Shown piece by piece: positions 3,015 to 15,310 of a stretch of DNA of 52,984 nucleotides. Position numbers and translations under genes: made by a program. The stretch is from the NCBI GenBank assembly GCA_021646405.1, contig SOER01000019.1, positions 1 to 52,984 of the forward strand. The letters are read 5' to 3'. Position 1 is the stretch's first letter; each line of letters starts with the position of its first letter. This stretch comes from Candidatus Loosdrechtia aerotolerans (GTDB lineage: Bacteria > Planctomycetota > Brocadiia > Brocadiales > Brocadiaceae). The notes beneath the pieces are model-generated. The model saw only the letters and a list, made by a program, of their open reading frames with translations, had not been told where the DNA came from and ran no database searches.

Positions 3015-5651
3015 TTATCGAAAATGGTGTTTTAGATATTCAATCCTCTCCATCGCCTGTTGTATCCTGATCAAAATTAATCCCCGTATAGAACCAAACA
3101 ATTTATTTGATAGCCGTTCATCGGTAATGCAGGTATATGCATCTATTGCCCTGTGGTAATAATCTTCCTGTTCTTCCTCATAGAGCAGGGCCAGTTCCTC
3201 ATAAAGATTTCCGATGCGATATTGTGCATTCACTAGTGTTATTCCTTCGAACTTCTCCAGTATTTCACTAAATTTCGCAAGTGCCTTTTTATAATAGAGT
3301 TTTGCACCTTCATCGTCACCAATGTCATAGAGTGCAAGTCCCACATAGTGATACGCCTCTGCTAATGCATACGAATGCTCTTGCGCCTCTTTCGTAAACC
3401 CTTCTTTGAGTTCATCCATGATATTTTCATACCTTCGTTCCATCGCTTCAACGAGGCTGATACTCAATGGAATATGAGCATCTTCCAGCTCGTTTTGGCT
3501 CTCTATCCTTATGTATGGGAGGAACATTTTAGCCAGGCTCTTCAGACCCAGGCCCTGAACACGATACAGTTCACTTACCGAGTGAAATACCTTCTTTTCC
3601 TTTTTATAGTTCAGAATACTCTCTATCTCTTCATTCACCATGCCAAACTCTTTCTTCAAGAACAGAGAGAGTTCTTCGTCGCTTTCCCGGTTCAATTTCT
3701 TTTGTAGTTCGAGTAATTTCGTAAGGATAGCTAATTTGTAGGAAGGCTTTTTACCGTGCAGTACCGTCCTCCTGAAGAAAATAAGCCAGGGCTCTCTGCA
3801 CGAGGATTTCACGTGCCCTTCATTACCGTAAAAAACCTGCAATGCAATTCCAAGCTTGTACTGTTCCCAATCTTCCGGCTCTTTAAACTGATGATCCTCG
3901 TATACCTTGTCAATCAGATGAAAATATTCTTCCAGCATCTCCTTCATCTGGATAGAACCCACCTTCCGGTAAAGTTTCAATTCATGGGTGCTGTACTGTA
4001 GTGCCTCTTTATAATATCCCATGGCTTCCCTGTAGTGATGGTCATGACAATACCTGTCTCCGAAATATTCATAAAACCTTTTTATCATTCTTGCGGATCT
4101 GATACCTACGTCGTCTTCCCTCCCCACATGATACACCCTTTCAAAATGGCGTATTACTGCTCCTGGGGCTTGAACGGGCTTATTTGTAAGGTCATCCAGT
4201 CCTTCCACATATTCATAGAGGAAATCACATTTTTGGAGTAAATCATCATCCATCCCTTTGCACATCCTGGCCTTCAGGATGCAATCTTTTGCCTTTTGGA
4301 ACATGCCAAACTCTGCATATGCATCTCCTAACTGAATAAGAATATTCCCCAATACTTTATCATGTGCCCCCATGAAATATTTATATTGTTTCGTGTACTT
4401 GCTGATTGCTGTTGTATAGATAACTGGTACAATTTCCGCGTTTCTGCCTGCAATGCGAACGACATGTACGGTAACCCTTCCCGTTTCAGGTTCCATTTCC
4501 ACCCCCGGCACCACTCTTCCATCCGGGAACCGTATCCATGAAGTTCTTTTTATAATACTTGCCGTGAAGACTTTCTGTGTACCTCTGGCCAGATCACCTG
4601 AAGACAGGACGGTATCCCATGGCATCTCACCCCTTACTTCTGTACCGGGCCTGACAATTTTAAAATTCTTCAGGATGTCCACCTCGTTCTTCCTAAAGTG
4701 ATTCCAGTTATTAACCCTCCCCAATAATCTTCTATCTTGTGCCACATCAGCGGGTAATATTCTCAGGGTCATTTCGCCACCCAGCTCTTCAACAATAATC
4801 GCACTTAAAATCGCCTCAGGAATCCCGCCCACACCGATGATCAGATCAACTTCACCTCTGGTTACTGCGAGGGTTGGGGTAAGATCATCGTCCTCGACAA
4901 GAATTAATTGAGCGTTATGCTCTTTTATTATTCTAATAAGTTTCTCGTGTCTTGGCCTGTTCAGGACAATAATCTTCATGCGCCTGATCTCATCACGGAT
5001 ATTCTGCCAGGAATTTTCTTTGCCTTTTTCTTTCAAGATATGTTCGGCCATAAGACGCAAATTTCTTGTAATGCTGTTGGTTACGCTGATGCCGGCACCT
5101 TTATATTTATTCCCAACGATAGTCTTGACCCCGTACATATCGGGAGAATTGAATAACCCTCCCCTTTCGCTGTATCCAACGGCAAAGATTACTCCGCCTT
5201 CAGATCCCCGACGAACCAGATATCGGTCATTCTCAAAGGCACTGAGCACAATATCCGCCTCGTTATCTCTCTGCCCTGTGCCAGTACCAAACTCCTCCCC
5301 TATATAGAGCATTGGCATATCTTTCCGTTCACCCTCTGCATTCACTACATATGCCTTCCACCAATTAAAGCTGTTATAGATATGCCTGAGCCACCAGATG
5401 GCCATGCTGCGTAAGCGAAAGACATTAAAACCCTCACCGTTTGTGCTGAAATACCGTAAAGACCGTGCGGCAACAACCCCAACGGCATGTCTGAGTTCAT
5501 TTCTGTTTACCAGCTGTAATCCCCCCTCTCCGGATATCCGCAAATTGTATTTTTCCGGAATACATGCCCCGAGGATATAAGGGTCGTCTATTCGCTTTGG
5601 ATCATAACTTTCATCTTTTATAAATGAATTATCATCTCTTGATGTCTTCAT
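3015..5651 (-). CDS. GlpX-like fructose-1,6-bisphosphatase fold fused to TPR repeats (probable pseudoenzyme)
   Basis: The first ~415 of 878 residues align by eye with class II (GlpX) fructose-1,6-bisphosphatase. EGERKDMPMLYIGE at 106-119 matches the family's GEGERDEAPMLYIGE, VLNRPRHEKLIRII at 229-242 matches the LDRPRHxxLI segment, and GVGGIPEAIL at 273-282 matches GxGGxPEGVL. The metal/phosphate motif DPLEGT is replaced by SAFEND around 137-142, and the N-terminal aspartate region is unrecognisable, so FBPase activity is doubtful. Residues ~430 to the end are helical pairs of TPR type (for example LGDAYAEFGMFQKAKDCILKA and YHYVGLALYDIGDDEGAKLYYKKAL). GlpX enzymes are usually about 320-340 residues, so this is a fusion. 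ATG at 5651. A scaffold or sugar-phosphate sensor is an inference. Confidence 0.75.
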   Translation of the reverse strand: MKTSRDDNSFIKDESYDPKRIDDPYILGACIPEKYNLRISGEGGLQLVNRNELRHAVGVVAARSLRYFSTNGEGFNVFRLRSMAIWWLRHIYNSFNWWKAYVVNAEGERKDMPMLYIGEEFGTGTGQRDNEADIVLSAFENDRYLVRRGSEGGVIFAVGYSERGGLFNSPDMYGVKTIVGNKYKGAGISVTNSITRNLRLMAEHILKEKGKENSWQNIRDEIRRMKIIVLNRPRHEKLIRIIKEHNAQLILVEDDDLTPTLAVTRGEVDLIIGVGGIPEAILSAIIVEELGGEMTLRILPADVAQDRRLLGRVNNWNHFRKNEVDILKNFKIVRPGTEVRGEMPWDTVLSSGDLARGTQKVFTASIIKRTSWIRFPDGRVVPGVEMEPETGRVTVHVVRIAGRNAEIVPVIYTTAISKYTKQYKYFMGAHDKVLGNILIQLGDAYAEFGMFQKAKDCILKARMCKGMDDDLLQKCDFLYEYVEGLDDLTNKPVQAPGAVIRHFERVYHVGREDDVGIRSARMIKRFYEYFGDRYCHDHHYREAMGYYKEALQYSTHELKLYRKVGSIQMKEMLEEYFHLIDKVYEDHQFKEPEDWEQYKLGIALQVFYGNEGHVKSSCREPWLIFFRRTVLHGKKPSYKLAILTKLLELQKKLNRESDEELSLFLKKEFGMVNEEIESILNYKKEKKVFHSVSELYRVQGLGLKSLAKMFLPYIRIESQNELEDAHIPLSISLVEAMERRYENIMDELKEGFTKEAQEHSYALAEAYHYVGLALYDIGDDEGAKLYYKKALAKFSEILEKFEGITLVNAQYRIGNLYEELALLYEEEQEDYYHRAIDAYTCITDERLSNKLFGSIRGLILIRIQQAMERIEYLKHHFR

Positions 5652-6770: not shown

Positions 6771-7988
6771 ATGAAAACCCAAAGAATAATTGATTTAATA
6801 TGCTTGAAAGGTGTCCTGGAACGGCCTATGGAAACTGCATTTCCCAATCGTATATCCGGCAGATTTACTATTTTATACTGGATGACAATTTTCTTCCTTT
6901 CATTTTTCATTATGAGTATGGCAGCAGCCTCCGCGTCCACAATCATACAAGTCTCCTGCGGAAATCTTCACAGCCTCGCCCTGCAATCTGATGGTATCGT
7001 TTTGGCCTGGGGACAGAACATGCACGGTCAGTTAGGAGACGGAACAAACACGAATAGAAAAACACCCGTACAGGTAAAAGGTCTTAGAGGTGTAACCGCC
7101 GTTGCCGGAGGAGCATGGCACAGTATTGCTTTAACATCAGACGGCACTGTGTGGGCCTGGGGAGGCAACTGGTCCGGACAATTGGGAAACGGTACAACAA
7201 AAAGCATAAATAAACCCTCCCGGGTTAGCGGCCTTAAGGATATTACGGCAATTGCGAGCGGAGGATTGCATAATCTTGCTTTAAAATCGGATGGTACGGT
7301 CTGGACATGGGGCCGGAATGTATATGGCCAGCTTGGCGATGGTACTACTACCGATAGAAGAACACCCGTACAAACAAGAAACCTGAACTCCGTCATCTTC
7401 ATTACCGGAGGGGCGTATCACAACCTTGCTCAAAAGGCAGATGGCACAATCTGGGCATGGGGATTCAACCAGTATGGTCAACTGGGAGACGGTTCTATTA
7501 CCAACAGAACAATTCCCATTCAGGTAAGCGGGCCTAAAGATATCAGTATGGTAGATTGTGGGGGAGATCACAGTATCAGCTTGAAGAATGATGGTACCGT
7601 CTGGGTATGGGGTCTTAACCAATACGGCCAACTGGGTGATAGTTCAACCGATAACAAGAGCACTCCGTCCCTTCTTAATAAACTTAAAGATATCGACAGA
7701 ATTAAAGGCGGTGGGGACCACACCGTTGTCCTGAAGTTAGATGGTACTCTATGGGCATGGGGAAATAATAGGAGTGGTCAGTTGGGAAACGGTACTACTA
7801 TCAGCAGCGCAATCCCTGTCCAGGTAAGTGCACTTCATAACGTTATTGCCGTTGCCTGTGGTGACCAGCACAATATTGCCCTCAAGCCTGATGGTACCAT
7901 GTTGACATGGGGATTAAACAGCACCGGGCAATTGGGAGATGGCACTGTCTCAAATAGGACTACCCCGGTTCTTGTGAGAATGAAATAA
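6771..7988 (+). CDS. Exported RCC1-repeat seven-blade beta-propeller protein
   Basis: From residue 74 the protein consists of RCC1 repeats with the signature DGTVWAWGxNxxGQLGDGT. There are six consecutive units of exactly 50 residues plus a final 32-residue unit. The strand before the first unit (IIQVSCGNLHSLALQS) can complete the last blade, so a closed seven-blade propeller is expected. A hydrophobic segment at about residues 37-55 ends in Ala-Ala-Ala-Ser-Ala and looks like a signal peptide. It fits better with a start at the ATG at 6828 than at 6771, so the N-terminus is uncertain. Bacterial RCC1 proteins have varied binding roles. The gene stands alone; its partner or ligand is not evident. 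Confidence 0.85.
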   Translation: MKTQRIIDLICLKGVLERPMETAFPNRISGRFTILYWMTIFFLSFFIMSMAAASASTIIQVSCGNLHSLALQSDGIVLAWGQNMHGQLGDGTNTNRKTPVQVKGLRGVTAVAGGAWHSIALTSDGTVWAWGGNWSGQLGNGTTKSINKPSRVSGLKDITAIASGGLHNLALKSDGTVWTWGRNVYGQLGDGTTTDRRTPVQTRNLNSVIFITGGAYHNLAQKADGTIWAWGFNQYGQLGDGSITNRTIPIQVSGPKDISMVDCGGDHSISLKNDGTVWVWGLNQYGQLGDSSTDNKSTPSLLNKLKDIDRIKGGGDHTVVLKLDGTLWAWGNNRSGQLGNGTTISSAIPVQVSALHNVIAVACGDQHNIALKPDGTMLTWGLNSTGQLGDGTVSNRTTPVLVRMK

Positions 7989-10302: not shown

Positions 10303-12012
10303 ATGGTTTTAAAAACGGTACAAGATTATGGTGTCGAACAAGCTCCTCGTCTTTGTATTCTGGTAGCAGAAAACAAGGAGTACATTCATCAGTTTTTAAA
10401 AACCACGCTGGAGCGGGAAGGACACCATATCATCGTTGTGGAAAAAGGCGAGGAGATCTTTCATCTTTTGGAATCGGAAGTTATAGACCTCCTCATCCTG
10501 GATAGTCATCTTCCAGATATTTCCGCTGTTGATATCTTTTACCATTTACGTGAAGATCCTTTGTGGCAGTCGCTGCCTGTTATCATGCTTGTTGATGATC
10601 AGCTCCCTGAAGATAGGGGGGAAGATCTATTCCCGGACGTAAACGATTATATTACAAAGCCGCTTACAAAAGATAAATTACTCGCACATTTGCAGATTAT
10701 TTACGAACGCTGTCTAAGAAATATAAAGCTCAACCCTCTGACCCGCCTGCCCAGCAATATTGTGATAGAACGGGAGATTAGGCACCGTATAGCCCGGAAA
10801 CATAAATTCTCAGTGCTGTACTGTGATATTAACCATTTTACATCATATAACGATACATACGGTTTTGTCCAGGGAGATACTATTATAAGGACTACAGCGA
10901 GGTTACTTTTATCATGCGTAGATCACTGCAATGATCTTGTAGGTCATATGGGAGGAGATGATTTTATTATCGTAACCTCACCTGACAAAAGTATAGGTAT
11001 TTGTGAGTCCATTGTGAAAAAATTTGACAACCTGGTTCCAAAACTTTACAGTAAGACTCACATCAAGACCGGATTTGTTGTGACTCAGGACCGCAAAGGC
11101 ATCCTCCGTAAATTCCCTTTGATTTCAATTGCCATCGGTGGTGTGAGTAATGAATGGAAGGAACTGACTTCACTGGGAGAGATTAACACCATCGGTGAAG
11201 AGATGAAGCGCTTCGCAAAACACAAAGGAGAGGGGAAATCTGCCTATGCCTTCGACCGCCGTAAAGGCCTCGCCGGGGAGGATATCGATTCTGGGTGTAA
11301 TAAAATTCCTTTTAAATCATACGAGGATGCTGCTTCTACCTTAAATAAAAGCTATCAGAGCCGGATCAAAAAAATCCTTCAGATGATTGAATGTGAAGTA
11401 TCAAAGCAGCAGAATAGAAAAAATGCATCATTATTAAGTATCGGTTGTGGATCAGGGATGATTGAAAAACAGATTATGGACCTGGGAATTCAGGTTTGCG
11501 GGATAGGGCTTTCCAGCAGAACCGTTACCGAGGCGCAAAAGAAAGGCATTGATATTTCTATTGCTGATATTAACTGCGGGTTGCCGTGCGATGACGGTGC
11601 ATTTGATATTGTGTTTGCAGGAGAGATCATTGAGCATATTATTGAAATTCAAAAATTTCTGCTTGAGGTCAAAAGGGTTCTCAAACCAGGCGGGGCCTTT
11701 ATTTTCACAATTCCTAATATGGCCAGATTTGCTGACCGTATTCGGTTCCTCTTCGGAAAAACCCCAAAACACGCTTCTTCCTGGAATACTTTACACATCC
11801 GGCATTTTACCTTTGGTTCTCTGAAAATAATCCTGGAACGCACCGGGTTTACGGTAATTCAAACAGCATCAAACGTAGTATCCTACGATTTCACATCACT
11901 TTGTAACTTCGAATCAGCGTGGTTAGCGAATCTGTTTCCGTCACTTGGGAAAAATCTTATTATCAAGGCCTTTTCGTCTCATACCCCTTTTTTAGAAGAA
12001 AAAGCAGCATAA
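10303..12012 (+). CDS. REC - GGDEF-like (GGDDF) - SAM methyltransferase fusion protein
   Basis: Three domains can be read in 569 residues. Residues ~16-135 are a response-regulator receiver with phosphoacceptor Asp67 and conserved Lys119. The usual acidic pair is Ala22-Glu23, and the switch Thr/Ser position looks like a Val. Residues ~145-320 are a GGDEF-type cyclase fold with NPLTRLP, CDINHFTSYNDTYG and GGDDF at 217-221. The fourth motif residue is Asp instead of Glu, and the RxxD inhibitory site is not recognisable. Residues ~370-540 are a class I methyltransferase with motif I LLSIGCGSG (377-385) and FDIVFAGEIIEHI. No membrane segment. The methyl acceptor is unknown; cyclic-di-GMP synthesis is possible but uncertain. 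The next gene, 60 bases on, encodes a nucleoside-phosphorylase fold. Confidence 0.8.
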   Translation: MVLKTVQDYGVEQAPRLCILVAENKEYIHQFLKTTLEREGHHIIVVEKGEEIFHLLESEVIDLLILDSHLPDISAVDIFYHLREDPLWQSLPVIMLVDDQLPEDRGEDLFPDVNDYITKPLTKDKLLAHLQIIYERCLRNIKLNPLTRLPSNIVIEREIRHRIARKHKFSVLYCDINHFTSYNDTYGFVQGDTIIRTTARLLLSCVDHCNDLVGHMGGDDFIIVTSPDKSIGICESIVKKFDNLVPKLYSKTHIKTGFVVTQDRKGILRKFPLISIAIGGVSNEWKELTSLGEINTIGEEMKRFAKHKGEGKSAYAFDRRKGLAGEDIDSGCNKIPFKSYEDAASTLNKSYQSRIKKILQMIECEVSKQQNRKNASLLSIGCGSGMIEKQIMDLGIQVCGIGLSSRTVTEAQKKGIDISIADINCGLPCDDGAFDIVFAGEIIEHIIEIQKFLLEVKRVLKPGGAFIFTIPNMARFADRIRFLFGKTPKHASSWNTLHIRHFTFGSLKIILERTGFTVIQTASNVVSYDFTSLCNFESAWLANLFPSLGKNLIIKAFSSHTPFLEEKAA

Positions 12013-12072: not shown

Positions 12073-12783
12073 ATGACAAACTTCAGAACCTTATTTGGTA
12101 CAGAGCCAGCTGCAATTCAAAAAACCTGTGTAGTCACTCCTTTCCTTGCACCAGGTATTCTCAGGGGATTTGGTATTCAATCGTTGAAAAAAGGTAAACT
12201 TTACTCAACGGTAAACACCGGCACATTTACCCTCGTGAAAACTGGTATCAGTACCTTACTTGTCGGCGATGCTATTCTGTATCTGGAGCAAACGGCTTGT
12301 CAGGAGATCATCTATTTTGGGGCCTGCGGTCTTTCACAGAAAACAGAACAATTAACTGTTGGCAGTCTCGTTTGCCCGAGAGAATGTTTATCATTCGAAA
12401 GCTTCACGGATGTTCTTTTCAGCTATACCGATAGAATTACAACCATGTTTCCGGATCAGGGTTTATTCCATTCCTTCCTGGAAAACAGCCCGACTCAGGA
12501 CATACAACCGGTCAGAGGGATGAGTATGGGGTCGCTGAAGTGTGAGGATTTTTACAGAAATTTTTTTATTGAAAGAGGGATTGAAGTAATCGATACGGAA
12601 TGTTCGGCCTTTTTTAGCGCAGCACACTACATTCAAAGAAAGGCAATCGCTCTTTTGTACATAACCGATGTCATTGGTAAAAACCATTTCCTTGAATCAT
12701 TAAAGCTGCAGGACAAATCACACATCAATAACGCAATTCAAACGGCTTGTAAAGTAATAGATACGTTTTGCAGACAAGAATAA
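12073..12783 (+). CDS. Nucleoside phosphorylase/nucleosidase family protein (PNP_UDP_1-like)
   Basis: This 236-residue protein looks like a member of the purine nucleoside phosphorylase/MTA-SAH nucleosidase superfamily. It has a phosphate/ribose-loop-like YFGACGLS (81-88), the VIDTECSAF segment (172-180) matching the family's V-D-M-E-x-x-A with Glu176, and YITDV with Asp199 in place of the catalytic/base-binding S-D. The Met that normally precedes the Glu is Thr here, so substrate preference may be altered. It follows the methyltransferase fusion by 60 bases on the same strand and may be co-transcribed. Hydrolysis of a methylation by-product such as SAH is a hypothesis from context, not shown. 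Confidence 0.7.
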   Translation: MTNFRTLFGTEPAAIQKTCVVTPFLAPGILRGFGIQSLKKGKLYSTVNTGTFTLVKTGISTLLVGDAILYLEQTACQEIIYFGACGLSQKTEQLTVGSLVCPRECLSFESFTDVLFSYTDRITTMFPDQGLFHSFLENSPTQDIQPVRGMSMGSLKCEDFYRNFFIERGIEVIDTECSAFFSAAHYIQRKAIALLYITDVIGKNHFLESLKLQDKSHINNAIQTACKVIDTFCRQE

Positions 12784-14398: not shown

Positions 14399-15310
14399 GT
14401 GGATTTTGTAGCGATTGATGTCGAGACCGCCAATGCTAACGCGGCGTCAATCTGTCAGATTGGCCTTGCATCTTACTCAGGAAACACGATCATTGAAGAA
14501 TGGAAATCTTATGTGGATCCGGAAGACTTTTTTGATCCCGTGAACGTGTCTATCCATGGGATCAATAAGAATACGGTAGCAGGCGCTCCCCGGCTGCCTG
14601 AAATCTATAACGCCGTCCTGTCTCGTCTGAAAGACCGGGTGGTAGTTTGTCATACACACTTCGATCGTGTGGCGGTTCATCGAGCGTGCTGCCGGTATAA
14701 ACTTCCACCCCCTGACTGTGCATGGCTGGATTCAGCCCAGGTTACACGACGAACCTGGAGTCACTTTGCGTCGCGGGGATACGGCCTCAAAAGTGTCTGC
14801 GGTTTTCTCGGATATGAGTTTATTCATCACGACGCGCTCGAAGATGCCAAGGCTGCTGGTCGGATATTGATCGCCGCCATGGAGATAACCGGTTTCTCCA
14901 TCAAAGAGTGGCTTGCCCGGGTAAAATACCCCATTGATCCCTCATCTTGCACCGATAGGACGATTGTAAGACAGGAAAATTCCCGGGGTCCGCTGTCCGG
15001 GGAGGTAATGGTCTTCACCGGTGCGCTTAAGATTCCACGATGGAAAGCGGTGAACCTGGCATACAGCATCGGTTGCGAAGTTGCCAGGAGCGTCACGAAG
15101 AGGACAACCATACTCGTAGTCGGCGACCGGGATGTTCAGAGGCTGGCAAACCGCGAGAAAAGTTCGAAGCAGCGGAAGGCTGAAGAATTAATAGCCCAGG
15201 GTCAGGCAATCCGCATTTTGCGGGAATTCGGTTTCATTGAACTTGCGACCCTCACTTTAGCTGGTAGCGGTCCTGATAATGGTATCCAGCAGACAGGAGT
15301 CAATCTATGA
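14399..15310 (+). CDS. DnaQ-like 3'-5' exonuclease with C-terminal BRCT domain
   Basis: Residues 1-165 are a DEDDh exonuclease of the DNA polymerase III epsilon type. AIDVETAN gives Asp7 and Glu9, HFDRVAV gives Asp89, and HDALEDA gives His144 and Asp149. Residues ~199-283 are a BRCT domain (GEVMVFTGAL, the AYSIGCEVARSVTKRTTILVVG segment) that usually binds phosphopeptides or DNA ends. The protein is probably a DNA-repair nuclease rather than the replicative proofreader. The start is GTG at 14399 with AGGAG seven bases upstream. Base composition is clearly higher in GC than the neighbourhood (31, 35 and 37 of 60 in three lines counted). The next gene overlaps its stop (ATGA). Probably acquired by transfer. 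Confidence 0.87.
   Translation: MDFVAIDVETANANAASICQIGLASYSGNTIIEEWKSYVDPEDFFDPVNVSIHGINKNTVAGAPRLPEIYNAVLSRLKDRVVVCHTHFDRVAVHRACCRYKLPPPDCAWLDSAQVTRRTWSHFASRGYGLKSVCGFLGYEFIHHDALEDAKAAGRILIAAMEITGFSIKEWLARVKYPIDPSSCTDRTIVRQENSRGPLSGEVMVFTGALKIPRWKAVNLAYSIGCEVARSVTKRTTILVVGDRDVQRLANREKSSKQRKAEELIAQGQAIRILREFGFIELATLTLAGSGPDNGIQQTGVNL

Follow-up and report, generated by a model that had tools for sequence, protein, structure and literature searches.

A Receiver-GGDDF-Methyltransferase Fusion Protein in Anammox Planctomycetes

Results

A Single Open Frame Joins a Receiver, a GGDEF-Type Domain, and a SAM Methyltransferase

We analyzed a 52,984-nucleotide stretch of Candidatus Loosdrechtia aerotolerans (contig SOER01000019.1), referred to here as the window. 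Its forward strand carries a gene that encodes three domains in succession, with a plausible ribosome-binding site upstream (aaGAGGGTaaaaaATG). The features considered below are:

10303..12012, + strand: REC-GGDDF-methyltransferase fusion gene, 569 aa, ATG start, single open frame (ORF; Pfam; full-length orthologs in three genomes)
10351..10716, + strand: receiver (REC) domain, residues about 17-138 (Pfam Response_reg; alignment; structural match to the PhoB receiver)
10726..11268, + strand: GGDEF-type domain of the GGDDF subfamily, residues about 142-322 (Pfam GGDEF; subfamily tree; diguanylate cyclase fold match)
10951..10965, + strand: GGDDF signature, residues 217-221 (GEDNF or SEDNF in three orthologs)
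11269..11343, + strand: poorly ordered linker, residues 323-347 (pLDDT <50 throughout)
11344..11982, + strand: class I SAM methyltransferase domain, residues about 348-560 (Pfam Methyltransf_11/23; 3cc8; structural matches)
12073..12783, + strand: nucleoside-phosphorylase (PNP)-superfamily protein, 236 aa, 60 bp downstream of the fusion (Pfam PNP_UDP_1, 40.9 bits)

Each domain of the fusion passes its Pfam cut-off: Response_reg at residues 19-130 (61 bits versus 30.2), GGDEF at residues 145-261 (70.4 bits versus 23.8), and Methyltransf_11 at residues 378-468 (62.8 bits versus 21.2). Methyltransf_23 also matches residues 370-520 above its curated cut-off. Together with orthologs of the same length in three genomes, these matches show that the three-domain chain proposed from sequence alone is genuine. 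A misassembly, or two genes joined in error, is ruled out by the orthologs, which are full-length, 63% identical, and share the domain order and length. The region around the linker (residues 323-355) is 42% identical to the orthologs. No transmembrane segment is evident in the 569-aa protein; hence, it is reasonable to regard it as soluble.

An AlphaFold2 model built from a 19-row alignment (mean pLDDT 78) contains three folded domains, with the methyltransferase domain confidently folded. Its pTM is 0.42, so the relative placement of the domains is not predicted. The modeled receiver superimposes on that of PhoB (Z 20.2, rmsd 1.6, 121 residues), and the GGDEF domain on diguanylate cyclase folds (e.g., 5llw: Z 21.7, rmsd 1.9, 156 residues). 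For the REC-GGDEF part as a whole (residues 17-317), the best structural match is DgcR (Z 22.2), where an rmsd of 6.8 reflects domain placement. The methyltransferase domain matches the solved SAM methyltransferases 4htf, CmoM, and 3cc8 (Z 20-21), and 3cc8 is also its nearest PDB sequence (E 3.6e-14).

The Fusion Is Rare among Sampled Planctomycetes

Hydrazine synthase alpha (PF18582) is present in the window's genome, in a genome of the same genus (G001), and in the genomes of a sister genus (g5), and is absent from all 14 control genomes; the fusion-bearing organisms are therefore anammox planctomycetes. A dsrA search made for the same purpose stayed under its cut-off. In two sister-genus genomes, the fusion lies ~20 kb from the hydrazine synthase alpha gene (G012, C1:1856351 and 1877131; G005, C4:470018 and 490015); in the window's genome, the two genes are on different contigs.

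All three sampled sister-genus genomes carry an ortholog of 569 aa. Across the phylum, the fusion was found in 4 of 392 sampled genomes, all four of them anammox planctomycetes and belonging to two genera, which agrees with the earlier statement that such a combination is uncommon. Beyond the window's genome and the three sister-genus genomes, it was not found among the 62 genomes of the order. The whole-genome scans covered this phylum, and outside Planctomycetota absence rests on weaker scans: the full fusion was not found in 72,556 plasmids (31 records match the REC-GGDEF or GGDEF parts, none covering 80% of the query) or in viral contigs, and genome contigs searched with short exact peptide patterns returned only one REC-GGDDF protein without a methyltransferase (L013) and one receiver match. 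Further matches were REC-GGDDF proteins without a methyltransferase, EAL-CBS-GGDDF proteins, and membrane- or HAMP-linked GGDDF proteins, the last assigned by eye.

We found no description of a REC-GGDEF-methyltransferase architecture in the open-licence literature searched. The architecture can thus still be called apparently novel, as first proposed, but the novelty is smaller than it seemed, GGDDF being ordinary for its subfamily. The fusion combines ordinary modules in a way specific to this lineage, and amounts to a response regulator whose enzymatic output is unusual.

The Downstream Phosphorylase-like Gene Is Uncoupled from the Fusion

Upstream of the fusion, a glpX-like gene and an RCC1 gene are conserved in the sister genus and in G001. 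The glpX-like gene (3015-5651) encodes an 878-aa protein whose fructose-bisphosphatase match is confined to residues 99-309; it adjoins the RCC1-repeat gene (6771-7988), a pairing conserved in anammox genomes. G001 lacks the fusion, and the region next to its RCC1 gene is filled with transposase-like reading frames (L065, G001:C1:453000-472400). An MKTSII/MKASII gene is a neighbor common to G001 and the sister genus, lying beside the PNP-type gene in the former and beside the fusion and an HD-domain-like gene in the latter. The simplest history is an ancestral fusion locus from which the fusion gene was then lost in G001 and the PNP-type gene in the sister genus.

The short gap and shared strand could mean that the fusion and the PNP-type gene form a functional pair, for example in SAH removal or as a nucleotide-signaling defense pair, and the PNP superfamily match comes with weak similarity to MTA/SAH nucleosidase. 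However, the PNP-type gene occurs without the fusion in G001 and in G020 (another anammox genus), is absent from the fusion-bearing sister-genus genomes, and encodes a protein that matches no PADLOC model. Because the two genes are uncoupled across genomes, neither is the PNP-type gene an obligate partner nor do we judge it functionally coupled to the fusion; a functional pair is highly improbable. The PNP-type protein is divergent, and at E 0.001 no relative turned up among PDB sequences; it is 67-68% conserved in G001 and G020.

No partner kinase is adjacent to the fusion gene in the window. A defense system was rejected, the PADLOC matches being generic methyltransferase and receiver cross-hits only. 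Further downstream, the protein encoded by 14399-15310 joins an RNase T exonuclease to a BRCT domain, the latter a weak match.

The Receiver Pocket Is Damaged Only in the Window Copy

The receiver had been described as having lost part of its acidic pocket, and this is true of the window copy. In the alignment, the acidic pair reads E23-N24 and V97 occupies the T/S position, while the phospho-acceptor D67 and K119 are kept, so that the phosphorylation pocket (acidic pair, D, T/S, K) is incomplete. The second residue of the acidic pair is the usual Mg2+ ligand. All three sister-genus orthologs retain an intact pocket (E-D, D, T, K), and the damage is private to the window copy in this comparison. 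Receiver phosphorylation is therefore plausible in the sister genus, judging from these residues, whereas the window receiver can probably be phosphorylated weakly or not at all.

The GGDEF Motif Has Decayed in the Orthologs

The cyclase-like domain of the window copy reads DINHFTSYND...GGDDF, and those of the orthologs read DINHFKSYDD...GEDNF or SEDNF; ND is thus retained in the window and changed to DD in all three sister-genus copies. The inhibitory RxxD site is not recognizable, as the sequence-only reading had noted: the window copy has H208-x-x-D211, and none of the four copies has the I-site arginine, the position being His or Tyr/His. Active cyclases without an I-site exist. Neither the window copy (GGDDF) nor its orthologs (GEDNF/SEDNF) conform to the cyclase motif definition, [G/A/S]G[D/E]E[F/Y] (PMC8835794).

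The idea that GGDDF is a peculiarity of the fusion did not survive comparison, since a broad GGDEF subfamily has it as its standard signature; it is present in every other GGDDF-type relative checked. In an IQ-TREE phylogeny, these relatives and the fusion split from the four canonical GGEEF response regulators in the comparison set (bootstrap 100), and the GGDEF domains of the window and sister-genus copies group nearest the REC-GGDDF protein L013 (bootstrap 83), with L012 also near. By this grouping, the fusion belongs to the GGDDF subfamily, its signature retained in the window and lost in the sister genus. One relative (L045) has EAL, CBS, and GGDEF domains and a carboxy-terminal-protease neighbor, from which we infer that it is the PA3258 gene. 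Stand-alone REC-GGDDF genes adjoin an xseA-like gene in three genomes (L022, L023, and L026; planctomycete families f95 and f24) and in two of these lie between that gene and purH, with neighbors named by eye; this conserved neighborhood could point to a connection with purines or DNA repair.

The published record on GGDDF proteins is mixed. GSU1937 makes cyclic dinucleotides, and no effect of PA3258 (GGDDF/EAL) on c-di-GMP was detected (PMC8835794); Bordetella DdpB, of unknown activity, has a GGDDF domain together with a CBS domain and an EAL domain that is mutated (PMC12805831). Hence, GGDDF alone decides nothing about activity. As far as sequence can tell, the sign of catalytic loss is the decay to GEDNF or SEDNF in the three orthologs, not GGDDF.

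The window copy might nevertheless be an active or partly active cyclase, of the c-di-GMP or cGAMP type, to which the methyltransferase is an accessory. It keeps GGDDF, ND, and the guanine-contact positions, and GSU1937 is a precedent. Against this, F179 is followed by T180 instead of the K usual in the subfamily, the DxD motif reads DIN, the I-site arginine is missing, the motif is lost in the three orthologs, and PA3258, cited as having no effect on c-di-GMP, is of the same subfamily type. We regard an active cyclase as unlikely. Because the sister genus has lost the motif and no classical cyclase site is common to all four copies, c-di-GMP synthesis is not their shared function. Of the earlier suggestion that inputs may work by binding, rather than by standard phosphorylation and c-di-GMP synthesis, the part on c-di-GMP synthesis is supported, as this is not a conserved job; the part on phosphorylation does not extend to the sister genus, where the intact receiver pocket makes phosphorylation plausible.

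The Methyltransferase Is the Candidate Output

The C-terminal domain has a class I SAM methyltransferase profile and a Rossmann-like fold. Motif I reads SIGCGSG (residues 379-385); all four copies have SIGCG, with Ser replacing the motif I acid, and all keep D422. The strand-2 acid that binds the SAM ribose is Asp in the three orthologs and G402 in the window, a substitution that the sequence-only reading had missed. Its proposal that the methyltransferase is the output agrees with ours, in that methyl transfer would be the natural output of such a fusion. Methyltransferase activity of the window copy is uncertain because of the change from D402 to G, and SAM binding may be weak given this change and the Ser in motif I.

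We examined the genomic context of the closest sampled non-fusion relatives (L030-L033) and of a paralog in the same genome (L002), identifying neighbors by eye from their sequences. L031, L033, and L002 adjoin glycosyltransferase-like genes, and L031 also a flippase-like gene; L032 adjoins an acyltransferase of the sugar-O-acetyltransferase type, and L030 a second methyltransferase. Since the relatives are only 22-34% identical to the fusion domain, transferring a substrate by context is weak, and the fusion gene itself lies outside any glycan cluster. In the anammox organism Kuenenia, as many as five methyl groups occur on the S-layer glycans, and one of these varies (PMC5088730). Kuenenia belongs to the same family, and its sampled genomes probably have no fusion gene. 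Because the methyltransferase relatives mostly adjoin glycan-biosynthesis genes, our guess, by analogy, is that the methyl acceptor is a glycan or sugar of the cell surface.

Active-Site Losses Differ between Lineages, with Purifying Selection in the Sister Genus

Catalytic losses fall in the receiver and methyltransferase of the window copy and in the GGDEF domain of the sister genus. We estimated dN/dS from NG86 counts. Within the sister genus, the whole gene gave 0.12-0.23, compared with 0-0.08 for folD and the HD-like gene of the same loci; with about 3-8 nonsynonymous changes per domain, the differences between REC (0.16-0.26), GGDEF (0.11-0.18), and methyltransferase (0.07-0.16) are suggestive only. 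The degenerate GGDEF domain of the sister genus is thus still constrained. Between the window copy and the sister genus, the overall ratio is about 0.17-0.19, an average that also covers the sister-genus branch; no ratio is given for the GGDEF domain, which is saturated at synonymous sites.

These values bear on two further explanations. The window copy could be a decaying gene without function, only the sister-genus orthologs being at work; its missing receiver and methyltransferase residues and the loss of the gene in G001 would fit. Yet its frame is fully open, all its domains score above the Pfam cut-offs, and the ratio of about 0.17-0.19, for all its averaging, speaks against decay, which we find improbable. 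Alternatively, the whole protein could be a non-enzymatic scaffold, its three domains turning into pseudo-enzymes that bind a phosphoryl group, a nucleotide, and SAM/SAH and signal by protein contact. That losses differ by lineage and that G001 dispenses with the gene are what a scaffold would allow, but in the sister genus the methyltransferase has the lowest ratio of the three domains, small counts notwithstanding, and keeps its strand-2 acid. A scaffold is doubtful, though to be taken seriously.

Discussion

We suggest, with a probability of roughly 45%, that the fusion is an orphan response regulator with a SAM-dependent methyltransferase output, a GGDEF-derived regulatory or dimerizing module, and a glycan-type acceptor. 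The receiver and the GGDDF-subfamily domain would form a regulatory and probably dimerizing module, in which the latter may no longer be needed as a cyclase. This module, itself presumably regulated by phosphorylation or nucleotide binding, would control a methyltransferase tethered through a flexible linker, whose likeliest acceptor may come from cell-surface glycan biosynthesis, as a small molecule or a sugar. A more specific form has a rather low probability: phosphorylation and a nucleotide would both gate the methyltransferase, the one-time cyclase domain would sense GTP (or a nucleotide related to it) rather than make c-di-GMP, and a signal would in this way be coupled directly to the methylation of a metabolite or surface glycan.

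The fusion resembles the REC-GGDEF response regulators PleD, WspR, and DgcR in having a receiver followed by a GGDEF-fold domain. Unlike them, it has no I-site arginine, belongs to the GGDDF subfamily, and carries an extra C-terminal methyltransferase; its motif is eroded in the orthologs, and its receiver pocket is damaged in the window copy. With EAL-CBS-GGDDF proteins (PA3258-like and Bordetella DdpB-like) and stand-alone REC-GGDDF proteins (L012, L013, L022, and L026), it has in common the GGDDF signature and the conserved C-terminal part of the domain, but none of the subfamily proteins examined has a methyltransferase domain, and the sister-genus fusions have lost GGDDF. The fold and most SAM motifs are those of Methyltransf_11/23 enzymes (3cc8 BCE_1332, 4htf/CmoM, and glycan-cluster methyltransferases), and an H-x-x-x-F element after the methyltransferase core is common to the fusion and the glycan-cluster relatives. 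The fusion differs from these enzymes in being joined to a REC-GGDDF module, in the Ser at motif I, and, in the window copy, in G402.

If the methyltransferase is the regulated output, methyl transfer of this kind would join the known outputs of response regulators; if it is not, the fusion would be a lineage-specific domain shuffle. A signal-gated methyltransferase would give the GGDEF fold a direct signal-to-methylation output. The preferred reading, if true, would also provide a clear case of a GGDEF domain kept under selection after loss of its catalytic motif, and, with genetic tools for anammox bacteria in short supply, a way into how these organisms adjust a surface that is heavily methylated.
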